Shown here: one piece after another, positions 3,542-60,600 of the stretch
Position numbering within the stretch: position 1 is the stretch's first letter
How the letters are laid out: each line of letters opens with the position of its first letter
Assembly: GCA_030770425.1 (NCBI GenBank)
Contig: JASJFT010000171.1
Location: forward strand, 35,234 to 99,233
DNA length: 64,000 nucleotides
Origin: Darksidea phi
Lineage: Eukaryota > Ascomycota > Dothideomycetes > Pleosporales > Lentitheciaceae
Reading direction: 5' to 3'
The notes under the pieces: generated by a model
Seen by the model: only the letters and a program-made list of their open reading frames with translations
What the model was told of the DNA's origin: nothing
Database searches by the model: none
Translations under genes and position numbers: made by a program

Positions 3542-3706
3542 GAGAGTGGACAAAGCTGCGAGCAATCGGAGTTGGAGCACAGTGGAGCTTCGACGTATCA
3601 TGTCAGCCAGGCCTTGGCATAAAGCCATCCGCGCCCCACTCGACACAGCAGCAAAAATAATCTGCCCTTTCTCGGACGACAAGTGAGACATAAAGAGGCA
3701 AAAAGT

Positions 3707-3787
3707 CGACGTGGGCCAGATTCGAACTGACGCTCCCGAAGGAACAAGATTTCTAGTCTTGCGCGATAACCACTCCGCCACCACGCC
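3707..3787 (-). tRNA. tRNA-Ser (anticodon AGA)
   Basis: The minus strand folds as a class II tRNA. The 7-bp acceptor stem pairs GGCGTGG with CCACGTC. The anticodon loop CTAGAAA sits on a CAAGA/TCTTG stem, there is a long variable arm (TTCCTTCGGGAG), and the T-loop is TTCGAAT. A-box and B-box promoter sequences look intact. A run of five T follows the 3' end on the transcribed strand as a Pol III terminator. No intron is seen. Ser(AGA) decodes UCU and, after A34-to-inosine editing, UCC and UCA. Confidence 0.93.
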
Positions 3788-4740
3788 ATTGAAATTCGGA
3801 ACACTTTCAATGTTCGATGGAGTGTGCCGCATTTGTAAATTATATATGGCATTTGACGACAAGTATGCAAATGTCGACTGGCCCGACCAATGCACGTGTT
3901 TAGACTGCGCCTCGCGATCTGTCGCCGGTCGCTGCAAGTAACCCCGCAAAAAAAGAAAAAACTGGTCTCGCCCCATGCTTCCACGTTTGTCTTGATTTAC
4001 CTAACACTCATGCCGCAAACTGTCATAATCTGGCCACTCGCAACATGAAGGCAGGTGTGCCGACCCGCATGTTTGCAAAGGCAATCCGAGCGGACTGCTG
4101 CCCTGCATAGCGATCGCGGCCACGCTCAACACCCACTGCTCACCCATTACCCACCCACTACCCACCCACGATGTCGCTGGCTTCCGTATGATGCAGCTGC
4201 ATCTCTTTCGGACTTCGAGCTGACCACCACCCCCGTATCCCGACGAGCACAATCAATGGTCCCACCCCTGTCGTCCCGTCTAAGTCCCCTATTGGCCCAG
4301 ATTCTTACCTCGAGATTGAAACCCGGCCTCATGTTTACAACAATAGCGTGCTGACCGCAGCACCCTCCTGCGCCACTACGCCTGTCTGACCCAAAATGCG
4401 CTGATCCATCCGCGAATGGCGTTGGAGCAGGCACGTCCCCGGTCTGGTACTGGTAGTCTTGCCCTTGTTGGTGCGGAAGGCAGCTATCGCGGGTTTAGGG
4501 CTGGGGTGCAGGGCTGGCAAAGCCCGACACCGCGGTGCCACACTGCGTGCTAGTCCGGACTACGTTGTCGCGGACACTTATACACGCAAGGTGCCCTACG
4601 GCACGGCGGCTTACCTGTGAGCAAATGTCCGCTCGGCAGCGGCTTCTGCGTGGTTTTAATTGTCGGCGTTCATCAAGAGCCTGCTCCCACCTTTCGTTGC
4701 TTCGTCACCTCCATTCTGGTACCTATTCGAGCAACACACC
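3788..4740. other. Intergenic, upstream of the gag-like gene
   Basis: About 950 bases without a supported gene. It has pyrimidine-rich stretches and a short CCCACTA tandem (about 4148-4166, in ACCCACCCACTACCC-type sequence). It presumably holds the promoter of the plus-strand gene at 4741. No RNA gene is recognised. Confidence 0.5.
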
Positions 4741-6621
4741 ATGCCGCAACTACTTTCGCCGCGCCTCCCAGGCGTCGTCGTCTTACGTCCCGAGGCTACC
4801 GGTCCTGAGTACGCTCGATGGAAGCGCGGGGTCAAGAGCGCATTCGTTGCAAAGGGAACTTGGGGTCACTGCGATGGTACTCGTCCAATGCCTATGCCGG
4901 AAGCTGGACCGAACTTCTTCTCGCCTGTCTCGCCGACGAACCCGCAACCACAGCTACTGGAAGACCGAAGAGCCTGGGTGAAGAAAGATCGCGAGGTCAA
5001 GCTCGACATTTTCCTCTCGGTCGCCGACGACATCAAGCTAGAGATTTTCGAAGTCGGCCCGCCTCTCCCGCCATCCGCCCTCAGCGCACAGGAGATGCTC
5101 GCAGCGCTCGACAAGCGTTTTGGATCTTTCAAGTTTGAGGAATACCACCACGTCTTCTGTCATTTTCTCAATTTGCACATTGATCAGTACTCCAACATCG
5201 AGGAGTTCAACGCAGAGTTCCAGGCCACGCTTGAGGATCTGTTGGATCACGGCCACCCAATGTCTAACATCCAGGCTTGTAGCGCATACTTTTCCAAGCT
5301 GCGCTGCACACAGAATCCTTGGGTAGCCGCTAAGCTAAAGGAATGGGATGGGGAGAACCCAGAACTGCAACTCGCGGACCTGATGCAGCAGTCGCCGCCA
5401 TGGTCCATCATCAAGCCATTAACCATGCCCTCCAAGCCCACCTCAGACTCAATCCCGGAATCCATTCCAGAGGAATCCCTCGAAGGTACCCCTGAGCACT
5501 CAGATGGCGAGGATACACCCTCCGAGCGCTCCGAAGTCGCAACTCTATCGTCCCGCTCGTCACACTCCCGCAACTCTTCGGGTTCAACACAAAAGTCGCA
5601 AGAGATCACCGTCCACGCCTCCTACGAAGACCTCACAGAACTGCAGGCTTTCCCAAACGTCCCAACTACCGTCCTCACCGCAGCCGCGATTCACAAACGC
5701 GCGTCTAGCATCTCCAAGTTCGCCCTGGAGCCGCTCCCACCCATCAACCGCCCTCTGCCGCCCATCCCTTCCAAAGCAGCAAACCAGCCAGCTCCGCGAG
5801 CACGCTCTACCTCGCCCATCCAAGCGAAGAGACCCGCCTCGCCGAAAGCAAGCCTGGATTTGCCTACTGGCATTAGCGCACGATCGAATACTTCGCTCTC
5901 GTTGGAGATGACACACCCAGTGCTACGCCCAACAACGCCAACTCCAGCAACTCCACCGCCCACTATGCTGGCAGCAGCATCACCCGCACCGAAACAAGCA
6001 GAGATGCACCCTGCCCTACGCAACCAATCTCCACCTACCCCTCCACTAACACAAACTCCGGCGACATCAGCCTCGCCAACAACCCACATCTTCACCGCTA
6101 TGCGCGCGCGAACACCTTCTCCTCAAATGCTCCAAGGACGCTTTCTCACGCCCAAGAAGATCTCCATCCACCAAGCATCCTCAACCCCCGACCTGCACCA
6201 ACGCCTGGTCGAAACAACAAACGCAACTCCCTGCAGCCTAGCACCCCAACCCTCTTCCGAAAACCTGATCTCCCCTTCCTTCTCGCAAACCAAGCCTCTT
6301 CTCCGCGTCGAATCGAACAACAGCAGCGTAATGTCGCTCCCTCTACAAGGAGCTACCGTGCCAGAGTACAAAGATACCACCATCACTATCACAAGGACGG
6401 ATTCGGAGGCGGATAATACGAAAGAGTCTGATAAGAAAGAGCAAAAGAAGCCTATGATTTCTAAGATCGAGGCGGCAAGAGCGAGATTCGAAGGTCTCGG
6501 TGGGAGTCCGCCTAGAAACCTTGCTGTTGCGCTCAGTGAAGAGGACAGGAAGGGGCGGAAGAGGAGTTGGAGTATCAAAGCGAGGTTGAGCGCGCGCCAT
6601 GGGGTTAAAGAGATCATTTGA
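4741..6621 (+). CDS. Gag-like domain protein, apparently domesticated
   Basis: Single-exon gene of 626 aa from the ATG at 4741 (context CACACCATGC). An open frame continues 5' but has no better ATG. The first 200 residues resemble the capsid/gag region of Ty1/copia-type retrotransposons: YARWKRGVKSAF, a WVKKDREVKLDIF segment, a LDKRFGSFKFEEYHHVF segment and a helical stretch to about residue 215. The remaining 400 residues are low-complexity Ser/Pro/Thr-rich, with a short basic C-terminus. There is no zinc knuckle, protease, integrase or reverse transcriptase and no LTR nearby. The frame is intact and base composition resembles neighbouring genes, unlike the mutated elements elsewhere in the window. 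I infer a host gene derived from gag. Function is unknown, and the gag assignment rests on pattern recognition. Confidence 0.7.
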   Translation: MPQLLSPRLPGVVVLRPEATGPEYARWKRGVKSAFVAKGTWGHCDGTRPMPMPEAGPNFFSPVSPTNPQPQLLEDRRAWVKKDREVKLDIFLSVADDIKLEIFEVGPPLPPSALSAQEMLAALDKRFGSFKFEEYHHVFCHFLNLHIDQYSNIEEFNAEFQATLEDLLDHGHPMSNIQACSAYFSKLRCTQNPWVAAKLKEWDGENPELQLADLMQQSPPWSIIKPLTMPSKPTSDSIPESIPEESLEGTPEHSDGEDTPSERSEVATLSSRSSHSRNSSGSTQKSQEITVHASYEDLTELQAFPNVPTTVLTAAAIHKRASSISKFALEPLPPINRPLPPIPSKAANQPAPRARSTSPIQAKRPASPKASLDLPTGISARSNTSLSLEMTHPVLRPTTPTPATPPPTMLAAASPAPKQAEMHPALRNQSPPTPPLTQTPATSASPTTHIFTAMRARTPSPQMLQGRFLTPKKISIHQASSTPDLHQRLVETTNATPCSLAPQPSSENLISPSFSQTKPLLRVESNNSSVMSLPLQGATVPEYKDTTITITRTDSEADNTKESDKKEQKKPMISKIEAARARFEGLGGSPPRNLAVALSEEDRKGRKRSWSIKARLSARHGVKEII

Positions 6622-12534: not shown

Positions 12535-12668
12535 GGAGGTGCGGTCATAGAGAGATGTCCACACAGCAACAACAGTCACATCGATTCCAACCATCCTCGA
12601 TACTCAAATCCACCTTTCCACAAACGAGTCCACCAGTAAAGTCCATCTCCAACATCGCCATACTCAAG

Positions 12669-13268
12669 ATGCACTTCTCAGCCCTTACCACCCTTCTCCT
12701 CCCGGCCATGGCCCTCTCGGCCCCGGCCCCTCTTTCCACCCGTCAAGACGCCTGCGCACCCACCTCCTACACCATTTCCGATTTCAAATACACGACCGAC
12801 GCCTCCTCCAGCAACCCCACTGTCCACTTCGGCTTCAAGCCCACCTTCAGCGACCCCTCAATCATCACAGATGCATCCTCTACCGGCGCAACCTGTGACT
12901 CCACCGGCGCAACTCTGGACTCATTCCCCAATGAGACCGAGTGCTCGACTGGACGCGCCAACTTGCTTTATGGACTAAGGGCGCGCGTGGATCAGGCGAG
13001 CTTCCAGATTATTCACCAGTGGAGCTGCAATGGGTGAGTTGCTTTCCCTCCTCTTGTTCCGCTCCGGCATCGAAAGCTATGTCTGAGTATAGTGTGAATG
13101 TATACTAATGAGCCTGGTAGACAAACGTGGATGTCCTCCACCCCCCACAAGATCACCCCGTTGAACTGCACCCCCGGTGCGGACGGCAGCACCACGTGCA
13201 CGAGCCCAGCGCAGAGCTTTGCACCAGAGAACGTCCGCCGTATCTGCTCCACTCCCACTTGCCCATAA
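12669..13268 (+). CDS. Small secreted cysteine protein, AA1-like (Alt a 1-type) candidate
   Basis: Exons 12669-13033 and 13121-13268 (87-nt intron with a TACTAATG branch site) give 170 aa. The signal peptide is clear (MHFSALTTLLLPAMALSAP) and is followed by a possible dibasic-like TR processing site. The mature part is about 145 residues, Thr/Ser-rich, with regularly spaced cysteines. Recognisable segments are PTSYTISDF near the start, CSTGR in the middle, WSCNGQTW across the splice, and a C-terminus PENVRRICSTPTCP. This pattern fits the AA1-like family of fungal beta-barrel secreted proteins that includes the Alternaria allergen Alt a 1. Family placement is from memory of the pattern. It is probably an apoplastic protein or effector. 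An in-frame upstream GTG/ATG region in the leader is not needed. Confidence 0.75.
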
Positions 13269-13946: not shown

Positions 13947-14873
13947 TCAGCCTGAGGTTGGGATCAGATATGTTTGCCCTTCGAACCTCACTCCTTTTTC
14001 TAGCAAAGCAGACAACTCATCCTCATCCTCGTCATCTTCGTCGTTTTCGTCTTCATCCTGTTCCTGATTGCCTTCAGTAGATGGTTTCTCGGCCGTGGCT
14101 TTAAGACCATCTGCCAAATCAACGGTTACAACCTCATCCTCATTTTCGCGACTTCTCTTCTGCCCCATCAGTGACCAGGTGATCTCTTTATCCAGCTGCG
14201 CGGTATCTACATTCTTGCGCTTGAAACCCCAGCTCTTCCACACGACTTTCTTATACCCAACCGCGAAGATTGTCTCTCCCTCAGCTTCGAATGCCTTGCT
14301 GGATTCGTTCGACGTAATACGACCCACCTCAACGCTCGTATCGAGGGCAGCTCCGATGCCAACAGCATCAACTCCTCCACTGGCAATGGTGCTTACGGGC
14401 ACTGTGACTCCAATGTCACCGGACCGTTCCCTTGTGTCGCTCCTCGTAATTTTCGGGTTTGTGGCCGTTTGCAATTCCACCACCAGATAACTTTTGTTTC
14501 CACTTAGAATTCCATCGTTCAGCCACTCGCGGGCCTTCTGGTCTGTGACGCAAAGAGTCTTGAAGAGTTGGCGCGGCTGCCGAAGGATGTAGCGATTGAC
14601 CTTGACCGAAGATAGCGAAGCGCTCGAGCTATGTTTTGCTGAGCCGCCAATATCGAACAAGCGCGTCAAAGCGACTTTCAGCGAGTTCTCTGCTTCGGAG
14701 GACATAAGTCCTTGGAAGCTTTTGGCTGGAATGCACAGGAATTCATCAGGCTGTAGCGCCTGTTTCGGCACGTACGCGTCCATGACAGGGTTGCGAACAG
14801 ACTCGACAAGACTCCCCAGCGCTAATGCGCTCAAAGGGATGCACTCCTCGAGTAACATCATCTCCGAAGCCAT
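13947..14873 (-). CDS. Gasdermin-like candidate pore-forming protein
   Basis: Intronless gene of 308 aa on the minus strand. Residues 43-110 mix strands and helices (FLCIPAKSF, LKVALTRLFDI, NRYILRQPRQLF). Residues 126-145 (KSYLVVELQTATNPKI) resemble the central LYVVTEVLQT-type strand of animal gasdermins. A Gly/Val-rich segment (about 154-184) follows, as expected for membrane-inserting hairpins. Residues 199-212 (GETIFAVGYKKVVW) match the position of the gasdermin strand after a proline/glycine turn. Then come a basic linker, an acidic D/E tract (269-287) and a short tail, so the C-terminal part could be a cleavable inhibitory tail. The gene is divergent from a TPR-CHAT gene across 366 bp, and fungal gasdermins are known to sit beside CHAT or subtilisin protease genes. 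The family call is a hypothesis from pattern plus context. It could instead be an unrelated fungal family. Confidence 0.45.
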   Translation of the reverse strand: MASEMMLLEECIPLSALALGSLVESVRNPVMDAYVPKQALQPDEFLCIPAKSFQGLMSSEAENSLKVALTRLFDIGGSAKHSSSASLSSVKVNRYILRQPRQLFKTLCVTDQKAREWLNDGILSGNKSYLVVELQTATNPKITRSDTRERSGDIGVTVPVSTIASGGVDAVGIGAALDTSVEVGRITSNESSKAFEAEGETIFAVGYKKVVWKSWGFKRKNVDTAQLDKEITWSLMGQKRSRENEDEVVTVDLADGLKATAEKPSTEGNQEQDEDENDEDDEDEDELSALLEKGVRFEGQTYLIPTSG

Positions 14874-15239
14874 ATTAGAAGTGTATTTTTCAAGTACGAA
14901 TTTAATATGAAATGGTGCGGCAGAATGGCATGTCGTTGTTTAGGAGAGCTAGGCTGCAATGGATGCTGCCACTTGCGTCCTGCCTGGTCTTGGCTCTCGG
15001 CGTAAGACGGCCCGCCAGTCAGTAGGCAGGTAGGTAGACATTAACCTTGGAGTCTACTTTGGCGACGCGCTTGCGTATTTTCAATGTCTTTCTCCCCTCG
15101 GATACTACATAGGCTGCATACTTTAGCCTCCAACTACCGCGTTAACCCTAACGCCAATCTAGTCTTGCTTTTAGCAGCGAGGCAATTGTGTGTGCAGACG
15201 AAGCCGTGGCGCGTACACTCGTTGACACCATAACCGACC
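14874..15239. promoter_or_regulatory. Shared divergent promoter region
   Basis: These 366 bases separate the ATGs of the gasdermin-like gene (minus) and the TPR-CHAT gene (plus). A single region must serve both, which suits co-regulation. No clear TATA box is seen on either side. A GTAGGCAGGTAGGTAG run lies near 15022-15036. Confidence 0.6.
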
Positions 15240-18200
15240 ATGAGTATACCCACAGACGACACGCACGATCCAGAACAAATCGCGGAAGAACTGAATAGAG
15301 AATATATTACATACGTACAGCAGTTCAGGCGAACTTCAGACCTTTCAAAACTTCGGACCGCACTCGATTGCATAACTCGGGCAGTCGAGCTGACGGCCGG
15401 GGATGATTCTGCGAAGAGCAGCACACGGGCTGCACACTTGACAAATTTGGGACGATGTCACGGTCTTCTGCTGGATGCTACCGGCGATACTGAACATTTA
15501 GACAAATCCTTGGATGCGATCGAGCTGTCAGTGGAAGCAGCGCCTGAATCGTCTGAAGTCCGGCCGCTCTGTTACATCAACTACAGCGACGCCTTTGCGA
15601 AGCGGTACTTCCTTAGGTCCAACAGAGTTGATCTCGAGAATGGCCTGGAACAAGCACGACTAGCCGTCGCCGCCGCTCCACCGAGAAGCATACACTCGGG
15701 CTCGGCAAAGTCAACATTGGCCTCTCGTCTAGCGCAATACTTTCAGTACATTGAGCGCGATGATCGCTATATGAATGTAAGTTTTTTGGACCCACAAAGC
15801 GCATTCTTGCTCAACACAGTAACACACATGCCACCACTCGCTCGGGATTTTAACTACTGTATTGGAGATGAATGTGTGATGTTGCATTCCCCTCTATTCT
15901 TTAACAGCATGCTGACCATGTTTCTCTTGACGAAGGAAGCGATTCAAATCAGCCAGGAGCTCGTCCTAGAAACGCCAGAAGATGACGACTTGTATGCTGT
16001 CCATGTATTCAACCTCGCAGGAGATCTTCAAAACCGTTATCAACGCTATGGGGATCTCAATGACCTCCTCTCCGCGAAAGATCTCCTTGCACGGTCCAGG
16101 GAACTTTTTCCGCCAGGGAATCCCAACCATATACTCGCTGTAAGACAGTATGCTAGCGCTGTTTATGACATTGCAGACAGGACCAGCAAGTCAACAGAAA
16201 TCCAGAGCGTCATTGAGGACCTTACCAAGATCGAATCAGAAATTCACAATCCGCAAGAACTCGCGAAGGTATTCCATGAAAAGAGCCGTCTGTATGCCAT
16301 GAAGTACGAAATCTTCTCTGACAGCAGCGATCTTGACCAATCTATCATTGCGGCCGAGAATGCTCTACATAACACTTCTCACGATAGCGGCATTCGGGGG
16401 ATCATCCTACAGCGTCTGAGCAGTTCGTTGGGAAGCCGAGCCGAACTGCGCATGTCACTCGATGACATCGATGATGCCATCGCTTACGCAAGAGAGACTG
16501 CTACTCTTGCCGCGGAGGTTCCTGTGCGAGAGTCTGCCGCCCTCGATAACGTTGCTCGCCGTCTGGCACAAAAGTATCAGCTCTTTGGGAATATTGACAA
16601 TCTCAAGGAAGCACTCAAATGTAACCTTCGCGCCATTGACTTGATCCCGAAGGATCATGCAGGCCGATCTAGGAAGTTGCATGCGACAGCTATCTGCTTG
16701 AGAGATCATTTTGAACATTACGGTCAACTGTACGTAAGAATGTAGTCCAGAATTTATCCTCTCAGACTCTTCTGGAAACATTCGCTGACTTTTTAACTTT
16801 GCTCTCAGTCATTTCCTTGATGAAAGCATCGTTATGGAAAGAGAAGCCATCGAAGCACTTCCACAGGGACACGCTGACAGAGGAATGCCGCTAGATGGTT
16901 TAAGTCACAGTCTGAGAAAACGGTCCAAATTTACGGGTAACTCTCGTGATTTGGATGAGGCCATCATAGCATCTGAAGCAGCAGTGGAGAGTCTTCCAAG
17001 CGGGCACCAAATGAGACCGGCTTACTTGAACGGCCTCGCAAATTGCCTGGACAGCCGTGCCGCTCGGGAGAACTCTCTAAAAGACTCAGACAGAGCCATT
17101 GAAGCGGTCACCGAAGCCATCAACGCCTGTGCAGAAGGCTCTTCATCAGAACCCATCTACTTGGCGACGCTCTCCAACTGTCTTTCGGCTCGCTTCTCCA
17201 AGTTTGGGGACACTGAAGCTTTAACAAAGTCTATACAAACATTGCGGAATTGTTTGACTAAAGTTGCGGTACCAAATCCCCTGAGAATTGATATCATGCA
17301 CAATCTTGGCCTTCGACTCCAGGAAAAGTATCAGATCACTGCGAATCAAGATGACAAGCGCGAATGTCTTGAGGAATCGCTGGCCTTGGCCCAACAGTGC
17401 GTAGACAAAACACCAGAAGGGCATCCAAGTCTTCCTATATACCTCCAACAGTTGGGTACTAGGCAGTTATTTCTCGCAACGCTTATGGAGGGTGCTTCCG
17501 ACAATGAGCTCATGGCGCAGATGGCGGTTGCTGCATCTACTTATGACCGCTCATTCAGCATCGAAACCGAAACCCCATTGCGGAGAATTCAAACTGCTCA
17601 ACTCGGTGGCTATCTTCACATGCAAGGCAATAATTGGGAGAAGGCGAGTGCAATGCTTGCTGATAGTGTTGGGTTGTTTCGACGTGTGAGTCCGTTGTCT
17701 TTGGATGACAACGACCGACAAAGACAGCTCCGCGGGCTCTCAGGTATATCATCCCTGGCTTGTGCTAGCTTCATCGCGTTGGAGAAGCCGGACAAAGCAT
17801 TGGAAGTGCTAGAGGCCGGCCGTGGTATCATGGCAAATATTGCCATGGGATATCACGCTGACCTTTCCGACCTCAGGACCGCTGCTCCCCAATTGCACGA
17901 GAGGTATACGAGCCTTCGTGAGACCCTCTCACAGCCGTTGCCTGAGACCAGAAATCCTTCACATGGAGATGATTTGGTCGCAAAACGAAACGCGGATTTG
18001 GCTGAGTTTCAAGCCCTTGAGTCGGAAATTCGCGGACTTCCGGGGCTTGAAAGCTTCAATCAGAGCTTGACAGCTACCGAGTTAATGAGTATGGCCGTCT
18101 TGGGACCGGTGGTGGCTTTCTGTACTGTTCATCAGCGGTGCGACGCACTCATCGTGACCCCGAAGAGGATTCATGCACTTCCATTGCCTGAACTGAAGGA

Positions 18201-19248
18201 AGAAGAAATAAAGGAGCGTGTGGGGTTTGTTGTAGGGACAAGTCGGCTCAGCAAAATGCCGCCTTCCAAGAGAGGCATAGCGAACAGAAAGATGAGGTTG
18301 ATGCTAGAGTGGCTGTGGATCAAGGCAGTCGAGCCTGTTCTCCAGCATCTCGACTTGCTCGGGGACAAGGTTCTGACTTCAGAAGAAAAGAAAAGACTTT
18401 GGTGGGTGACAAGCGGCCCGCTAGGTCTTTTACCACTACACGCAGCCGGAATGGGTGACAAGAAGCCTTCACGAAACACCTATGCTCGAGTCATCTCATC
18501 CTATGTCCCCAGTTTCTCAAGCCTCGCCTTTTCCCGCCGATGCCAAGCAAAGGTTGACACAGCCTCTTCAGCAATAGCGGTGATCACCATGCCTGAGACA
18601 CCCGGAGGTCTCAGCCCCTTAAATACAGCAGCTGAGTCCCGTGCAATTCACGAGGTATTCAAGAGTTCCACAAGCGTCCATACCAACCTATATGAGCTAG
18701 TACAGCCCTCTGCGCCCCAGGTCCTGAATCTAGTCCGCCAATCCAGCATCGATATGCTCCACTTAGCCTGCCATGCTGAGCCTGACCTGGAAGATCCGTC
18801 CAACACAGCACTTCTTTTCGGTTCTGACCCAAGTGCCTCCAAACTAGATTCCCTTCCAGTCAGCAAGCTACGCAGTCTGCATACGCTTCCGCCGACTAAG
18901 CATCGCCCACCCCGATTAGCTTACCTATCGGCATGTTGCACAGCCCAGCAGTACGACCTGCGATTGATAGATGAAAATATTCATTTGGCTTCTGCATTCC
19001 AGCTTTGTGGCTTTCCGGCGGTTGTTGGGACCCTATGGGAGGCGGACGATTCTGCGGCTGTGGTAGTTGCTGAAAGGTTCTATCAGGAGTTGTTCCGCTT
19101 AAATGCGAAGGGCAATGGAGCGTCTGGTGAATGTATTGCACGGGCGCTAGATCTCGCTGTTGGAGTTTATAGGGGAATGAAGATAGGAAGGGTTAGTGCA
19201 GTAACAGATCCGCTAGCTTGGGCAAGCTTTGTACATATTGGAGCATAA
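15240..19248 (+). CDS. TPR-CHAT protein (caspase-like protease domain)
   Basis: I read exons 15240-15776, 15936-16729 and 16809-19248, giving 1256 aa. The first intron (159 nt, GTAAGT...GACGAAG) contains no stop and is a multiple of three, so it is invisible as a frame break. Removing it restores a TPR unit (YMNEAIQISQELV). The second intron is 79 nt (CT|GTACGT...CTCAG|T). About 15 degenerate tetratricopeptide units of the type DLDEAI..SEAAV..LP fill residues 1 to about 700. The C-terminal CHAT domain holds LHLACHAE with catalytic His1099 and YLSACCTAQ with catalytic Cys1153. The following GFPAVVGTLWEADD is also typical. CHAT proteins are caspase-clan proteases, and several cleave gasdermins. 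The divergent neighbour is gasdermin-like, so I infer a sensor-protease feeding a pore-former. TPRs would bind the trigger or scaffold. Confidence 0.85.
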
Positions 19249-19491
19249 GACAAGAGGTTAACCGTATAAGTACGAGTACAGTAACATTAACTCTATAAGA
19301 ATAAATCTACTATTAATATGTATTAAAGTATATCGTACTTTAGTAAGGTAATAGACTATTTACTAGGAATAATCTTTAGAAGACGACTCTAGTAGCGGCT
19401 CTTATAAAGACTCTTATAAAAAGTACCTTACGTATCCAGTAGAGGCTTAGTATTTAAGAAGTTTGTTCTATAATATATATATATATATATA
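19249..19491. repeat. AT-rich block with (TA)n tract
   Basis: Directly after the TPR-CHAT stop the composition falls to strongly AT-rich with many TA dinucleotides and CTTATAAAGA-like repeats. It ends in a TATATATA run at about 19470-19495. This looks like a RIP-eroded repeat remnant of unknown identity, and it truncates the pseudogene on its right. Confidence 0.6.
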
Positions 19492-20129
19492 TTATAATGT
19501 TTCTGGAGTTCCTTCTCGAGTAAATACGTGAACGATGTCCGGGCCGGGAAAGGTGTTGTGTTCTTGTCCGCACATGCGGCGAGTATCTCGAACTTTCCGT
19601 TCTTTCTGGCCTTTCTTCACGAGCGAGGCATTGCAGCAATCAAGCAGTAAAAGCACGTCGCCCTTGGCTGCGAACAACAATTGTTGTGCAACATGCCATG
19701 GTACTGTCGGACCTCCTTTCTCGAATCTGGAATCGTCAATGCAGCTTCCAGAGGTGTGCGTAAAGATACTTAGGCTGCCCACTCGGCCGACCCGTCCGCG
19801 TTCTTGCCACAGTGCCCCGCATAATACACTACTACAAGGGAGTCTTCGGTATCTAAGTGATCTCGAACGAAACTAACGATCTCCAGGTAGAGCCGAATGT
19901 GTCCTGTGTCGTCTGCGGGAAGTGCCAAAGATGCAACTGTGTATTTGAAATCTCGTTCGAAACATTCACGAAGTTTCTCAATTTTTGCTTCCGGGTGGAT
20001 GTCGTTCTCTTCCCAGTAGATGCAGAGCACATGCACCTGAGTGTACGGCTGCTTGTTGCTAAGAAAACACTGACTTGCGCGTTCAACGATGAGGCAAAAG
20101 TATCTTCGTCGCCATTTGGCCTGAAGCTC
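19492..20129 (-). pseudogene. Caspase-like (peptidase C14) domain pseudogene
   Basis: On the minus strand a caspase-type domain can be followed through three frames. The first block starts near 20129 (ELQAKWRRRYF), runs through VHVLCIYWEEND and contains YYAGHCG with the would-be catalytic His, ending at a stop after AEWAA. The second block lies one frame over and contains GGPTVPW and LLLLDCCNAS with the would-be catalytic Cys. A third frame shows KFEILAACA and a LLEKELQKHY end that runs into the TATATA block at 19491. At least two frameshifts and a truncated 3' end mark it as dead. In fungi such domains occur as stand-alone metacaspase-like proteins and as effector domains of NLR-type proteins, and the rest of this gene is missing. 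It lies tail-to-tail with the TPR-CHAT gene. Confidence 0.75.
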
Positions 20130-20653
20130 TGAGACGAAGTGAGTTCAGGCGTTGGAATCTCCGCGGGCTGATGTTGATGCGTTTCGAGACACGCGAAGCT
20201 GGCAAATCAGATTCTAGCGTGCGTTACTGCTTACCAAAAGAGCGCAGATTATAATGCTACCTTTATCTGTACTACCTGCATGGCATTTTTTAACGAGGTG
20301 TGGCTACACCAGGTGATCATCCTTCTCCCAGTTGCCTTAAGTTGACTGGTGCCGCTGCGTCTGAGGTTGACCGACTTCTGCCTCCACCTTCATAGCCTTG
20401 AAAGCCTATCTTCACTGGAGAAGTGAGGGGAAAAAATGTCCACACAGGAACGAGGCCGGACGAGACCCGAGACCATTCCTCAGATGAAGAAACCCCGCCG
20501 TGGATGTCCGTGCCTTAGTTTTCATACACCAGAGTTATTTCTGATCCTTCATTAGCCTTCTGCACCGTTCTCCAAAAGTGTCGAAGGGAAATTTCGCGAT
20601 GTTGGCAAGGAGGAGGAATTTTCCTTCGGTCTCAACCTCTTCATCTATTAGTC
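20130..20653. other. Intergenic, no gene seen
   Basis: Five hundred bases upstream of the caspase-like pseudogene. No supported coding, RNA or repeat feature. It may hold the dead gene's promoter. Confidence 0.45.
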
Positions 20654-21651: not shown

Positions 21652-21725
21652 GGTCGCTTAACTCAGTTGGTTAGAGTGTGGTGCTAATAACGCCAAAGTC
21701 GCGAGTGCGACCCTCGTAGTGACCA
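21652..21725 (+). pseudogene. Mutated tRNA-Ile (AAT) gene
   Basis: The 74 bases follow the eukaryotic tRNA-Ile(AAT) sequence almost fully: acceptor GGTCGCT, D-arm with CAGTTGGTTAGAG, anticodon loop CTAATAA, and a 3' acceptor closing AGTGACC plus A. Several positions differ from the usual fungal sequence by G-to-A or C-to-T changes (TTAACTCAG for TTAGCTCAG, GTGTGG for GCGTGG, CAAAGT for CAAGGT, AGTGACC for AGCGACC). The invariant TTC of the T-loop/B-box is TGC. The stem keeps one G-T pair. B-box loss makes transcription doubtful, so I call it a pseudo-tRNA. The surroundings are AT-rich and decayed. Confidence 0.75.
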
Positions 21726-23420: not shown

Positions 23421-25136
23421 TTGCCAACCGGCGTGTCGATCGGAGTATTGCACCATGGAGAACGCGTGTTCACCCGCAACTTAGGCCAAAAAGATGTCTA
23501 CCAAGTTTCGCTGCCTGACGAAGATACTGTCTACCGCATCGCATCCTTGACTAAACAATTCTTCTTAACTTTTGTATCCGCCTTCGTTGCTGACAGGAAG
23601 CTCGAATGGAACTCAAGGATCTTTTGAATCCTCCGTAGGTCTGCAAACCGCGCAGATTCCATTGTCGGCCAGCGCGTGACTGTGAAAGACGCATCGCAGC
23701 GGTCTCTCCAGCTTATATGCTATTGCGCAAGGCTCCGACAGTGAACTTACGGTCGAATCGAGCGACGTCATTGGACTTGGGAATGCCTTGCCTGCAGCAG
23801 CGGACCTTCGCACCAAAAGGGCATATTCTAACTTCGATTATACCATCGTCGCAAGGGTCGTTCGATCACATAGTGGGGAGGCCGTGGTCAGAGCATTTGG
23901 AGGAGCGTATCTTCAAGCCTCTGGGCTTGAATAGGACAACGTGCAATAGGGACATTCATTTCTCGAACGAGAACGTCACGCGTACGTACGTGGTACTTTC
24001 TGATGGCTGCGCTGTTGAAGTACCACCCACCGGCTTGGATGGAAAATCTGTAAATGGAGCCGCAGGAGGAGCACGAAGCACTGTCAATGACTTGTTGACC
24101 TGGGCGCAAATGCTCATGACGCTATATATGTTCTTCACTTTCGTGGACAAAGTCTGAAATCACCAACATACTGAAGGGTGTGGATACATAGCCTGTCTTG
24201 GACACCAAGCATGAGCAAAGCTCGCCAGCACATGGTTCCGTGAGCGTCTCGGTCCCCGAACACTCATTCTTATCGAACATACTTGAGCCTGCCGTGATCA
24301 TAGATCCGAAATCCATGGATGAAATGAATTATTGCCTGAGCATTGTACGACAACCTACCCCAGCTACCCTAGGAGTGATATCGGCAAATCGAGACTTTGT
24401 TCCTTCTCCGCTGATGGGGAAAGGTTCGCACTCACACACCGTGGATTCCAACAACGGCAACTTCAACGGTACAACAACAACCTTGTACATGATGTCGCAA
24501 TCCACTTGCGCTGTGGTTGTGCTTTCAAATGCAAGAGGCTTGAGCGACGCGACAGACTGGATAGCTCAAGGTATTCTACAAACCCTGCTCGACTTCCAAG
24601 CCCGCTATAGACATCATTTCAGAAGCCCGAAAATGCCGGAGCAAGTTCGACAAATGGTTCGAGAAAAACATTCAGGGCCTCAGAATGATCATCGACTCGC
24701 GTCTCCAGCTGACGGGCGCCGCTTGGACTACTGTGGGATATATCAACTTTCTGGATTCGGCGCCTTTTCCTTGAAGATCAGTGAATATACCCCCGAGAGA
24801 GGAAATCTGGTTATGGAAGGTAACGGAAAAACTTCGCAAAGGCATATTCTCCCTCACTACCATTACGATGTGTGGGAGTTCGCACCTGCCTCATATAATG
24901 ATTATGCAAGGAAAGGATACGGCCTTTATATTTCTTATCGGAACTTTATCCTCTCATTTCAAATGGAGGGAGACGGAAAAGTCACCACATTAGTGGCACG
25001 TGGATGGTTCAGATGTTTTGTTCACGAAACAGACCTAACCATTAAGGCGCTGAGTGTCTCGACGCGCTATGTTACCAATGTATCCCATAGTCTAGGCGCG
25101 TACCTGCCCAACGGTCGCATTTTCAAGGTTGAGTAA
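23421..25136 (+). pseudogene. Beta-lactamase-fold serine hydrolase pseudogene
   Basis: The N-terminal block (GVSIGVLHHGERVFTRNLG) carries the class C beta-lactamase/DD-peptidase SxxK motif in IASLTKQF. After a frame change near 23625, a second block shows DVIGLGNALP and YSNFDYTIVARVV, the YxN motif. After another change near 23865 come RPWSEHLEERIFKPLGL and a GAAGGARSTVNDLLTW segment. A further stop lies near 24155 before the long C-terminal block (24198-25136), which contains HSHTVDSNN in the place of the third motif and a lipocalin-like tail. No clean set of introns removes all three breaks, so I call it a pseudogene. In fungi this family includes intra- or extracellular esterase/peptidase-like enzymes and secondary-metabolite hydrolases. 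Start upstream of 23421 is unclear. Confidence 0.75.
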
Positions 25137-57622: not shown

Positions 57623-60600
57623 ATGGCGCTCAACATGCCCCCGGCGACACCTCAGCGGCCGACTCCCGGCGCATTTATCAATACTCCGGCGAGACCTGGG
57701 GTCTTTCGGTCAGCTACCGTGCAGCAACAGGCGCCCGCAGCCGTCGATACGCCGATACAACGCGCCGCGCGCACAATCAACGCCGCGCTGGATCGGGACA
57801 ACAGATTTCCCGCATTGGAGACATATATTGGGCGTAGGTTTCTTCGAATGACAATGCACCATAGGTCAGGATAGTAACATCAAACAGAGGGCTTCTCCGG
57901 AGAATACGACCTACCACAGAACCCAGCATGGGCGCCATTCCAGAAACTCAGGACGTACAAACACCCCGAGAGCGTCTTCGACCAGGTCAACGAAATGCAA
58001 ATGAACACCAAAATGGGTCTGTTCGCCGAGATCAACCACGCGTACGTCTTCGTCGACAACCAGCTGTACCTGTGGGACTACACACATCCCAACCCCGAAC
58101 TTATAGGCTTTGAAGAGCAGGCGCATAATATCACGTGCGTGAAGCTGGTCAAGCCGCGGGCGAAAGTCTTTGTCGATACGATTTCATGGCTACTCGTGGT
58201 CGCGACGGTAGCCGACATCTCGCTTATTGCGCTGGAATGCCAGACTGGGCCCGAAGGAGTGCACAGCGTATCGCTATACCGGACTGGACTCGCGACCTCA
58301 GTGCGCGGCCTTAATATTACCGCTATCGAGGGCTCGGCCAAGACGGGGCGCATATTCTTCGGAGAGGGCAATTCGGAGGACGTCTGGGAGATAACGTATT
58401 CACAGGAGGAGAAATGGTTTTCCAGCCGTTGTGGCAAGAGAAATCACGTTTCCAAGTCTATCACTCTGCCTGCTTTACCATTCTACGGGTCTCCGAGCCG
58501 GACAGGTATCAAGCAGATGGTCATGGACGACTCACGGAACCTCCTCTACACGCTATCAACGAACAGCACCATCAAGGTCTTCCATATGCGGACGCCGACG
58601 ACGCTGGAAAATGTCATTGTCCGGACACTCGCCCAGTTCAAAACCATGTGCAGCCATGTCATTCGCCAGTCAGCTGTCTTGGATAATCTGAAGCTTGTTA
58701 GCATAGATCCAATCTCCGGTTCCGAAGCAGAGAACTTATCATTGTTGACTACGACGTCGACTGGCGTTCGTCTCTTGCTGAGCACTACATCCGGAGGCTG
58801 GCTGTCCGATAGCACCAATGCACCGAACAGCATGGCTGTGCGCCACCTTCGTATCCCTCCACCATCTCCCGATGCCTCATCAACGCCCCAGTCCGGTTCT
58901 AGCAGTACCCAGCTACCACCATATCAAGGTGGTCCTCCTATCGGCTTTGATTCGCGATTTTTAACCGAGACCGTTGGCGGATTTCGATACGCGCCAGGAT
59001 CCTTCTTCTGCTTTGTGGAGAAAAGCCCAAATGACCCCAATCACACTCTGTTCGCGTCAGCACCGCACGCGGGCCAGCTCACTAATCAGCAAGAAACCCC
59101 CAGGTATGTCGAGACAGGGCAGATAATTCAAATTCAAGGCAAGATGCAGGATATCGGACAGGTCACGCCGCCCTTCTCTGCTCGAAATCAACCCACTGGA
59201 TTCGCAAACGAGCTAGCAGTACAGTACGACCAGCCAGCTAGCGAGTACGCTATTCTCACTCATTTCGGTGTGGAGACGGTGCGGAGACGAAGACTCGTGG
59301 ACATCTTCGCAGCTCTCATCAAGCGCGGAAGTGGTTCAGAGGGCGTGGATAACGATGTGCGCAAATTCGCGAAACAGTATGGCCTTACGGAAACGGCCTC
59401 TACAGCTCTGGCTGTGGCGTGCGGTCAAGGCTCTGATGTTGGAGCTGATGCTCAGTCTGCCAAGATTACAGAGCCGGATGTGCTAGAGTTCGCACGGAAG
59501 GTCTTCATCGAGTACGGCGGCAAAGCCCAGCTAACGGAGAGCGCGACGGTGGAGGGCCTCAGCGTGGATAACGTTCGGGCCTCGCCGCGTCATGACGGTA
59601 TTGCACTGTATGTTGCGCGTCTTGTTCGCTCGATCTGGGATACGCCCATAATTAAGGAAACCAAAAAGCCTGCTGGTGTTGTTTTGGAATCTACTCACAA
59701 AATTGCAAAACTGCAAGAGATTCAGCGTGCTCTTATGCAACTTCAAGAATTCCTCGACACGAACAAGTCTTTTATTGATGGCTTGGCTGGTCCAGAGGCT
59801 CTAGGCAGGGTTGCGTCACGGCAAGAAGAGGTGGAGCTACAGGGGGAGAATCGCGCCTTGACAAGTTTGCTGCAGATGATCAACAACATCGTTGAGGGCA
59901 TCGCATTCACTCTGGTTCTTTTCGAAGAGCGGTTGGAAGAGATTCTCCTTTTGCTTCCTGAGGACTCACGGATGTCTGTTCGGAAGCTTACATACCACGG
60001 GCTGTTTGCGGTCCGCGGAGGCAAGGATCTTGCACGAGAGCTGGTCAAGGCGATTGTTAACCACAACATTGCAAGAGGTTCGAACGTGGAGACAGTCGCT
60101 GAAGCTCTCCGGAGAAAATGCGGCAGCTTCTGCAGCTCGGACGATGTAGTCATCTTCAAGGCACAAGAGAATTTGAAAAAGGCAGCTGATGTCGGAGCGA
60201 ATGCCGAGCGGGGTCGAATAATGCTGAACGACAGTCTGAGGCTGTTCGAGCAAGTGGCTAAAAGCCTCAGCTCGGAACACTTGACTACAGCGATTGACAA
60301 GTATATCGAGCTGCAGTTTTACGCAGGTATGTTAGCATGCAGACAATTGATCTATCATCGCTAATTATATTGCAGGCGCAATTCGTCTTACACTCAAAGT
60401 CGCCCAGGAACTAGACCGCGGAAATAAAGCTCTTTCCTGGATAAAGGATGGACGGCCAGCTCAGGACGCCCGTCAACCATTCTATGAGAAGCGCACAGAG
60501 TGCTACCGCCTCGTCTTCAAGGTCATCGAGGCAGTTGACGTTGCATACAATGCTCAAGGTGTCGTCCCACAAGATGGTGTCATCTCACAGATAACCCGCC

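Follow-up and report, generated by a model that had tools for sequence, protein, structure and literature searches.

Reviews count approximately 1900 fungal gasdermins in 400 genomes, of which about 80% lie near protease genes and 19% (or about 17% of a CHAT/cysteine type, in another review) lie near CHAT genes (PMC10197012, PMC12881547, PMC10989679). A close precedent is a two-gene cluster of Podospora anserina (Clave et al. 2022, as these reviews describe it), whose TPR-bearing CHAT protease is the activator of its gasdermin (PMC12881547). HET-Q1, a gasdermin of 278 residues, is cut at F238 with the loss of its last 40 residues (PMC10989679), under the control of the serine (S8) protease HET-Q2; Neurospora crassa RCD-1 is shorter (244–257 residues), and is described as being activated when two variants meet (PMC12881547). 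Bacterial gasdermins are likewise reported to cluster with proteases (PMC12881547), and in heterokaryon incompatibility of Aspergillus fumigatus one of the hetB alleles is a CHAT protein, a role for gasdermin being left open in that account (PMC11138114). Here we describe a locus in 64,000 nucleotides of the dothideomycete Darksidea phi (contig JASJFT010000171.1, positions 35,234 to 99,233; ‘the window’), in which a gene for a 308-residue gasdermin-like protein is transcribed divergently from a gene for a CHAT protein. Systems of this kind are established, and this pair is most likely a well-supported, unannotated new member. It was originally predicted to be uncharacterised, which may hold for the pair itself and does not hold for the kind of system, bearing in mind the tested P. 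anserina pair.

A gasdermin fold is predicted for the 308-residue protein

The smaller gene is a single open reading frame (ORF) with precisely the coordinates that the original prediction gave it (Table 1). Its start methionine is common to 9 of 13 database homologues, the other four beginning 4–13 residues later; those named as closest are Polyplosphaeria fusca (81% identity over residues 1–240), Lojkania enalia, Viridothelium virens and Trypethelium subeluteriae, and two of these, P. fusca and V. virens, belong to the Dothideomycetes (orders Pleosporales and Trypetheliales, respectively). Gasdermins are the best structural matches of this protein in two predicted models, and structure comparison recovers the gasdermin N-terminal fold with its two long β-hairpins. 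The closest solved structure is RCD-1, both by fold and by sequence; further fold matches are to the bacterial gasdermins of Vitiosangium, Runella and Bradyrhizobium. The putative pore-forming core has a mean majority-residue fraction of 0.73 among 14 orthologues. Two motifs on which the gasdermin assignment had first been based fall on predicted strands (LVVELQ within residues 129–138; GETIFAV at residues 199–205, the strand being 200–212), and a Gly-rich stretch, residues 164–178, is a low-confidence loop in the second predicted hairpin.

Sequence matches point the same way, each of them weak when taken alone: RCD-1-1 in the PDB was found at an E-value of 0.013 with one profile (A4) and 0.32 with another (A3), and bGSDM of PADLOC matched the window protein at 0.021. 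A single-protein phmmer search of the PDB returned no gasdermin, and wider profiles were required. We also considered that the small protein might be MACPF/perforin-like, or some other pore protein that would constitute a new family of CHAT partners. This is very unlikely: the scores of the best gasdermins are far better in both models, and a gasdermin is further favoured by the protein’s size, by how its hairpins are laid out and by the weak sequence hits. The unrelated, confidently predicted fold that would have told against a gasdermin did not emerge.

The neighbouring gene encodes an intact CHAT domain

The CHAT protein spans two entries in the ORF list (15240–16745 and 16834–19248), and its three exons were delineated by alignment to relatives. 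The first intron (15777–15935, 159 bp) is in-frame and hence invisible in an ORF list; it was revealed by aligning the first ORF to seven relatives. With this and the second intron (16730–16808) removed, the product is exactly the 1256 residues originally predicted. Two other gene models were rejected in favour of the 159-bp intron that the relatives show: retention of the first intron, which gives 1309 residues plus a stop, and a trial splice at 15907, which breaks the frame.

The catalytic motifs (HLACHA and LSACCT) are intact, as had been claimed, and contain the invariant residues His1099 and Cys1153, which, as in the CHAT family at large, are presumably the catalytic pair. The earlier label of ‘TPR-CHAT’ is borne out for CHAT, which far exceeds its Pfam cut-off (Table 1), and is weak for TPR, the TPR_1 score being 17.8 bits versus a cut-off of 27.8. 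TPR domains are present in precomputed annotation of some CHAT relatives, and exceed the cut-off in the partner of one gasdermin paralogue (on contig C101, see below); none was found in the CHAT ORF scanned beside the other (on C474). The CHAT part also matches NF041237, the family of the TPR-CHAT protein Csx29 from type III-E CRISPR (Craspase), with an E-value of 3.7e-8 and 32.7 bits versus a cut-off of 300, and so is not a member; a phmmer search of this part against the PDB gave nothing useful.

Gasdermin and CHAT genes are paired within the genome and in other species

In the window the two genes are head-to-head, separated by the 366 bp that had been described as a shared promoter. We searched the genome (51.35 Mb, 477 contigs) for further gasdermins with three single-protein searches. 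There are three intact copies: that of the window, one at C474:30002–30838 and one at C101:60178–61029, which are 24–28% identical to one another over their first 240 residues. There are nine CHAT matches, of which one is a fragment and eight cover most of the domain; a scan of these eight loci with patterns for the two catalytic motifs reported four (L001, L004, L005, L006). All three intact gasdermins adjoin a CHAT gene in divergent orientation and within 10 kb: the distance is 366 bp in the window and 238 bp, ORF to ORF, on C101, and the CHAT domain is approximately 5.5 kb away on C474. A 192-residue ORF that matches nothing in Pfam (L013:4253–4831, minus strand) may lie between the two genes on C474, and would then be a possible third member of the cluster there.

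These data bear on the suggestion that the two genes are adjacent by chance, or merely share a promoter. Five of the eight full-domain CHAT loci do speak for it, insofar as no gasdermin above threshold was found in their fetched flanks (nor in those of the fragment, on C88). Against this, the probability that one gene lies within 10 kb of any of the nine CHAT matches by chance is approximately 0.0035, and yet three of three do so. We have not multiplied these probabilities because the three pairs may descend from one duplicated ancestral pair and so are not independent. Pairs also recur in Pleosporales and Trypetheliales, and we consider fortuitous adjacency the least credible of the explanations that we weighed. 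As a separate observation, C412 carries a fourth gasdermin copy that has decayed and contains several stop codons (L016, G000:C412:117500–126500, at about 4728–5293); no CHAT remnant was found beside it in the 28 kb searched (C412:108000–135900).

The recurrence across species, which agrees with the two divergent paralogous pairs in upholding the neighbourhood that was originally proposed, is read from equal-size contigs plus one pair of locus tags: 5 of 13 orthologues have, among the 120 of 739 CHAT rows listed, a CHAT relative whose contig equals theirs in length, and in T. subeluteriae the locus tags of the gasdermin and the CHAT gene are consecutive. We also compared identity matrices for eight gasdermin–CHAT pairs (the window, the two paralogues and the five matched orthologues, the other eight orthologues being left out), using the first 240 gasdermin residues and the last 430 CHAT residues; the CHAT proteins of C474 and C101 were single ORFs in this comparison, that of C474 probably incomplete.

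Several observations weigh against the reading as a gasdermin with its own CHAT protease. Across the eight pairs the identity matrices correlate at 0.99, a value that reflects how deeply the paralogues diverge and the history that the species share, such that joint inheritance alone can explain it. Eight of the 13 orthologues have no CHAT row on a same-size contig among those 120 (four of these contigs are under 5 kb, and four are of 11.8–378 kb). The TM-scores of the top structural match are modest (0.44/0.55, with a root-mean-square deviation of 9 Å), and the mean confidence (pLDDT) of the gasdermin model is 69.5, with low values at the hairpin tips and in the tail. Furthermore, neither Pfam nor NCBIfam contains a gasdermin match for the 308-residue protein, a 14-sequence profile (A1) found no gasdermin in the PDB, and both gasdermin paralogues are without a PADLOC hit at E ≤ 1.

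The C-terminal tail and a possible route to activation

Beyond the core, the tail is conserved at both ends. A conserved junction is followed by a variable, acidic linker, by residues 282–297 (majority fraction 0.61 in 14 orthologues) and by a conserved terminal motif (Table 1). The tail is indeed acidic, as originally noted: its last 65 residues hold 23 Asp/Glu, with 19–30 in all 14 aligned sequences. That a conserved end sits behind a variable linker suggests that the tail is a working part, for inhibition, docking or both; any cut would likely fall within residues 237–297.

This architecture is pertinent to a gasdermin that works without cleavage, as does RCD-1: two variants that meet after cell fusion would form pores, and the CHAT neighbour would act elsewhere. 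RCD-1 is, after all, the closest solved structure, its activation is described as co-expression of two variants and not proteolysis (PMC12881547), and this genome does contain three divergent intact gasdermins. We nevertheless regard this as unlikely, since each intact gasdermin copy found retains a CHAT neighbour, and the protein continues for some 70 residues past its core with a tail conserved at both ends, where RCD-1 proteins are complete at the lengths given above.

We therefore return to the explanation that we hold to be highly probable: a fungal gasdermin of the HET-Q1/RCD-1 kind forms, together with a CHAT protease of its own, a divergent two-gene unit for cleavage-activated cell death. 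The gene structure, the predicted fold, the conserved His/Cys and the conserved pairing are established here; from these we infer cleavage, autoinhibition, pore formation, death and a trigger. The gasdermin would be produced in an inactive state, with its core (approximately residues 9–236) followed by the junction, the linker and the terminal motif; the CHAT protein would sense a signal with its long N-terminal part, whereupon its CHAT domain would cleave the gasdermin within the tail. The released core might then bind membrane, assemble into a pore and kill the cell, plausibly in the service of defence or non-self recognition.

As in P. anserina, a gasdermin adjoins a CHAT protease, a likeness drawn from review descriptions and not from sequence; activation by the protease is P. 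anserina’s, and presumptive here. The short C-terminal tail recalls HET-Q1, for which control by a protease is the reported property; in contrast to the HET-Q1/HET-Q2 pair, the partner here is a CHAT cysteine protease and the tail is longer and acidic. Unlike the bacterial gasdermins, to which its sequence match is weak, the window gene is fungal.

A more elaborate scheme, offered tentatively and with more doubt than conviction, would have the tail act as a lock in two parts: a strand of the junction (VSVDL) beside the core would restrain the gasdermin, and the terminal motif (GQTYLxP), past the variable acidic linker, would be a docking handle for the cognate CHAT sensor only, making the three pairs of this genome separate, insulated death pathways.

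With these genes the fungal gasdermins gain a conserved branch in the Dothideomycetes that is unannotated, goes unrecognised by Pfam and has a clear CHAT partner. The three divergent pairs of this genome also provide a ready system for asking whether each CHAT protein is matched to its own gasdermin, and for addressing what the sensors detect, a question that the review leaves open (PMC12881547).

Table 1. Features of the gasdermin–CHAT locus, in window coordinates
Feature	Position	Strand	Basis or remark
Gasdermin gene, 308 residues	13947..14873	-	ORF; 13 homologues aligned; predicted fold; no intron seen
Conserved terminal motif, residues 298–306 (EGQTYLIPT here)	13956..13982	-	Majority fraction 0.78 in 14 orthologues, 0.49 in 50-sequence set
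Acidic, variable linker, residues 258–281; candidate cleavage region	14031..14102	-	Asp/Glu 11 of 24; majority fraction 0.41
Conserved post-core junction, residues 237–257 (GQKR...VTVDLADGL)	14103..14165	-	Majority fraction 0.75 in 14 orthologues, 0.52 in 50-sequence set
Putative pore-forming core, residues 9–236	14166..14849	-	Span aligned to solved gasdermins
Predicted second long β-hairpin, residues 141–196	14286..14453	-	Model secondary structure; residues 164–178 pLDDT <50
Predicted first long β-hairpin, residues 45–97	14583..14741	-	Model secondary structure; blocks 51–80 pLDDT 53–66
Divergent intergenic region, 366 bp, common to both genes; candidate promoter	14874..15239	.	Coordinates
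CHAT gene exon 1	15240..15776	+	Splicing from alignment to relatives
CHAT gene exon 2	15936..16729	+	Splicing from alignment to relatives
CHAT gene exon 3, with stop	16809..19248	+	Splicing from alignment to relatives
CHAT protease domain	18304..19245	+	PF12770, 112 bits (cut-off 24), E 4.8e-32
Putative catalytic His1099, in HLACHA	18772..18774	+	Invariant in 15/15 aligned sequences
Putative catalytic Cys1153, in LSACCT	18934..18936	+	Invariant in 15/15 aligned sequences

Other features of the window

Just downstream of the CHAT gene, the pieces of a broken caspase-like gene lie in two frames (19492–20144, minus strand); one piece matches Pfam Peptidase_C14 below the cut-off (E 0.084) and the other has no match, and their motifs VVYYAGHC and LLLLDCC are presumably caspase-like. 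Beside these pieces is an AT-rich stretch with a TA repeat (19250–19500), the G+C fraction of 19000–19999 being 0.445. Elsewhere, an ORF at 12555–13037 bears a weak likeness to Alt a 1 (AltA1, which falls short of its cut-off at E 0.09), and ORFs at 23717–25136 resemble a serine hydrolase of the beta-lactamase family (PF00144 above cut-off, DUF3471 below). The window also contains genes for tRNA-Ser(aga) (3705–3788, minus strand) and tRNA-Ile(aat) (21652–21725, plus strand), and a nucleoporin gene at 57995–60364 (plus strand) with PF08801 and PF03177.
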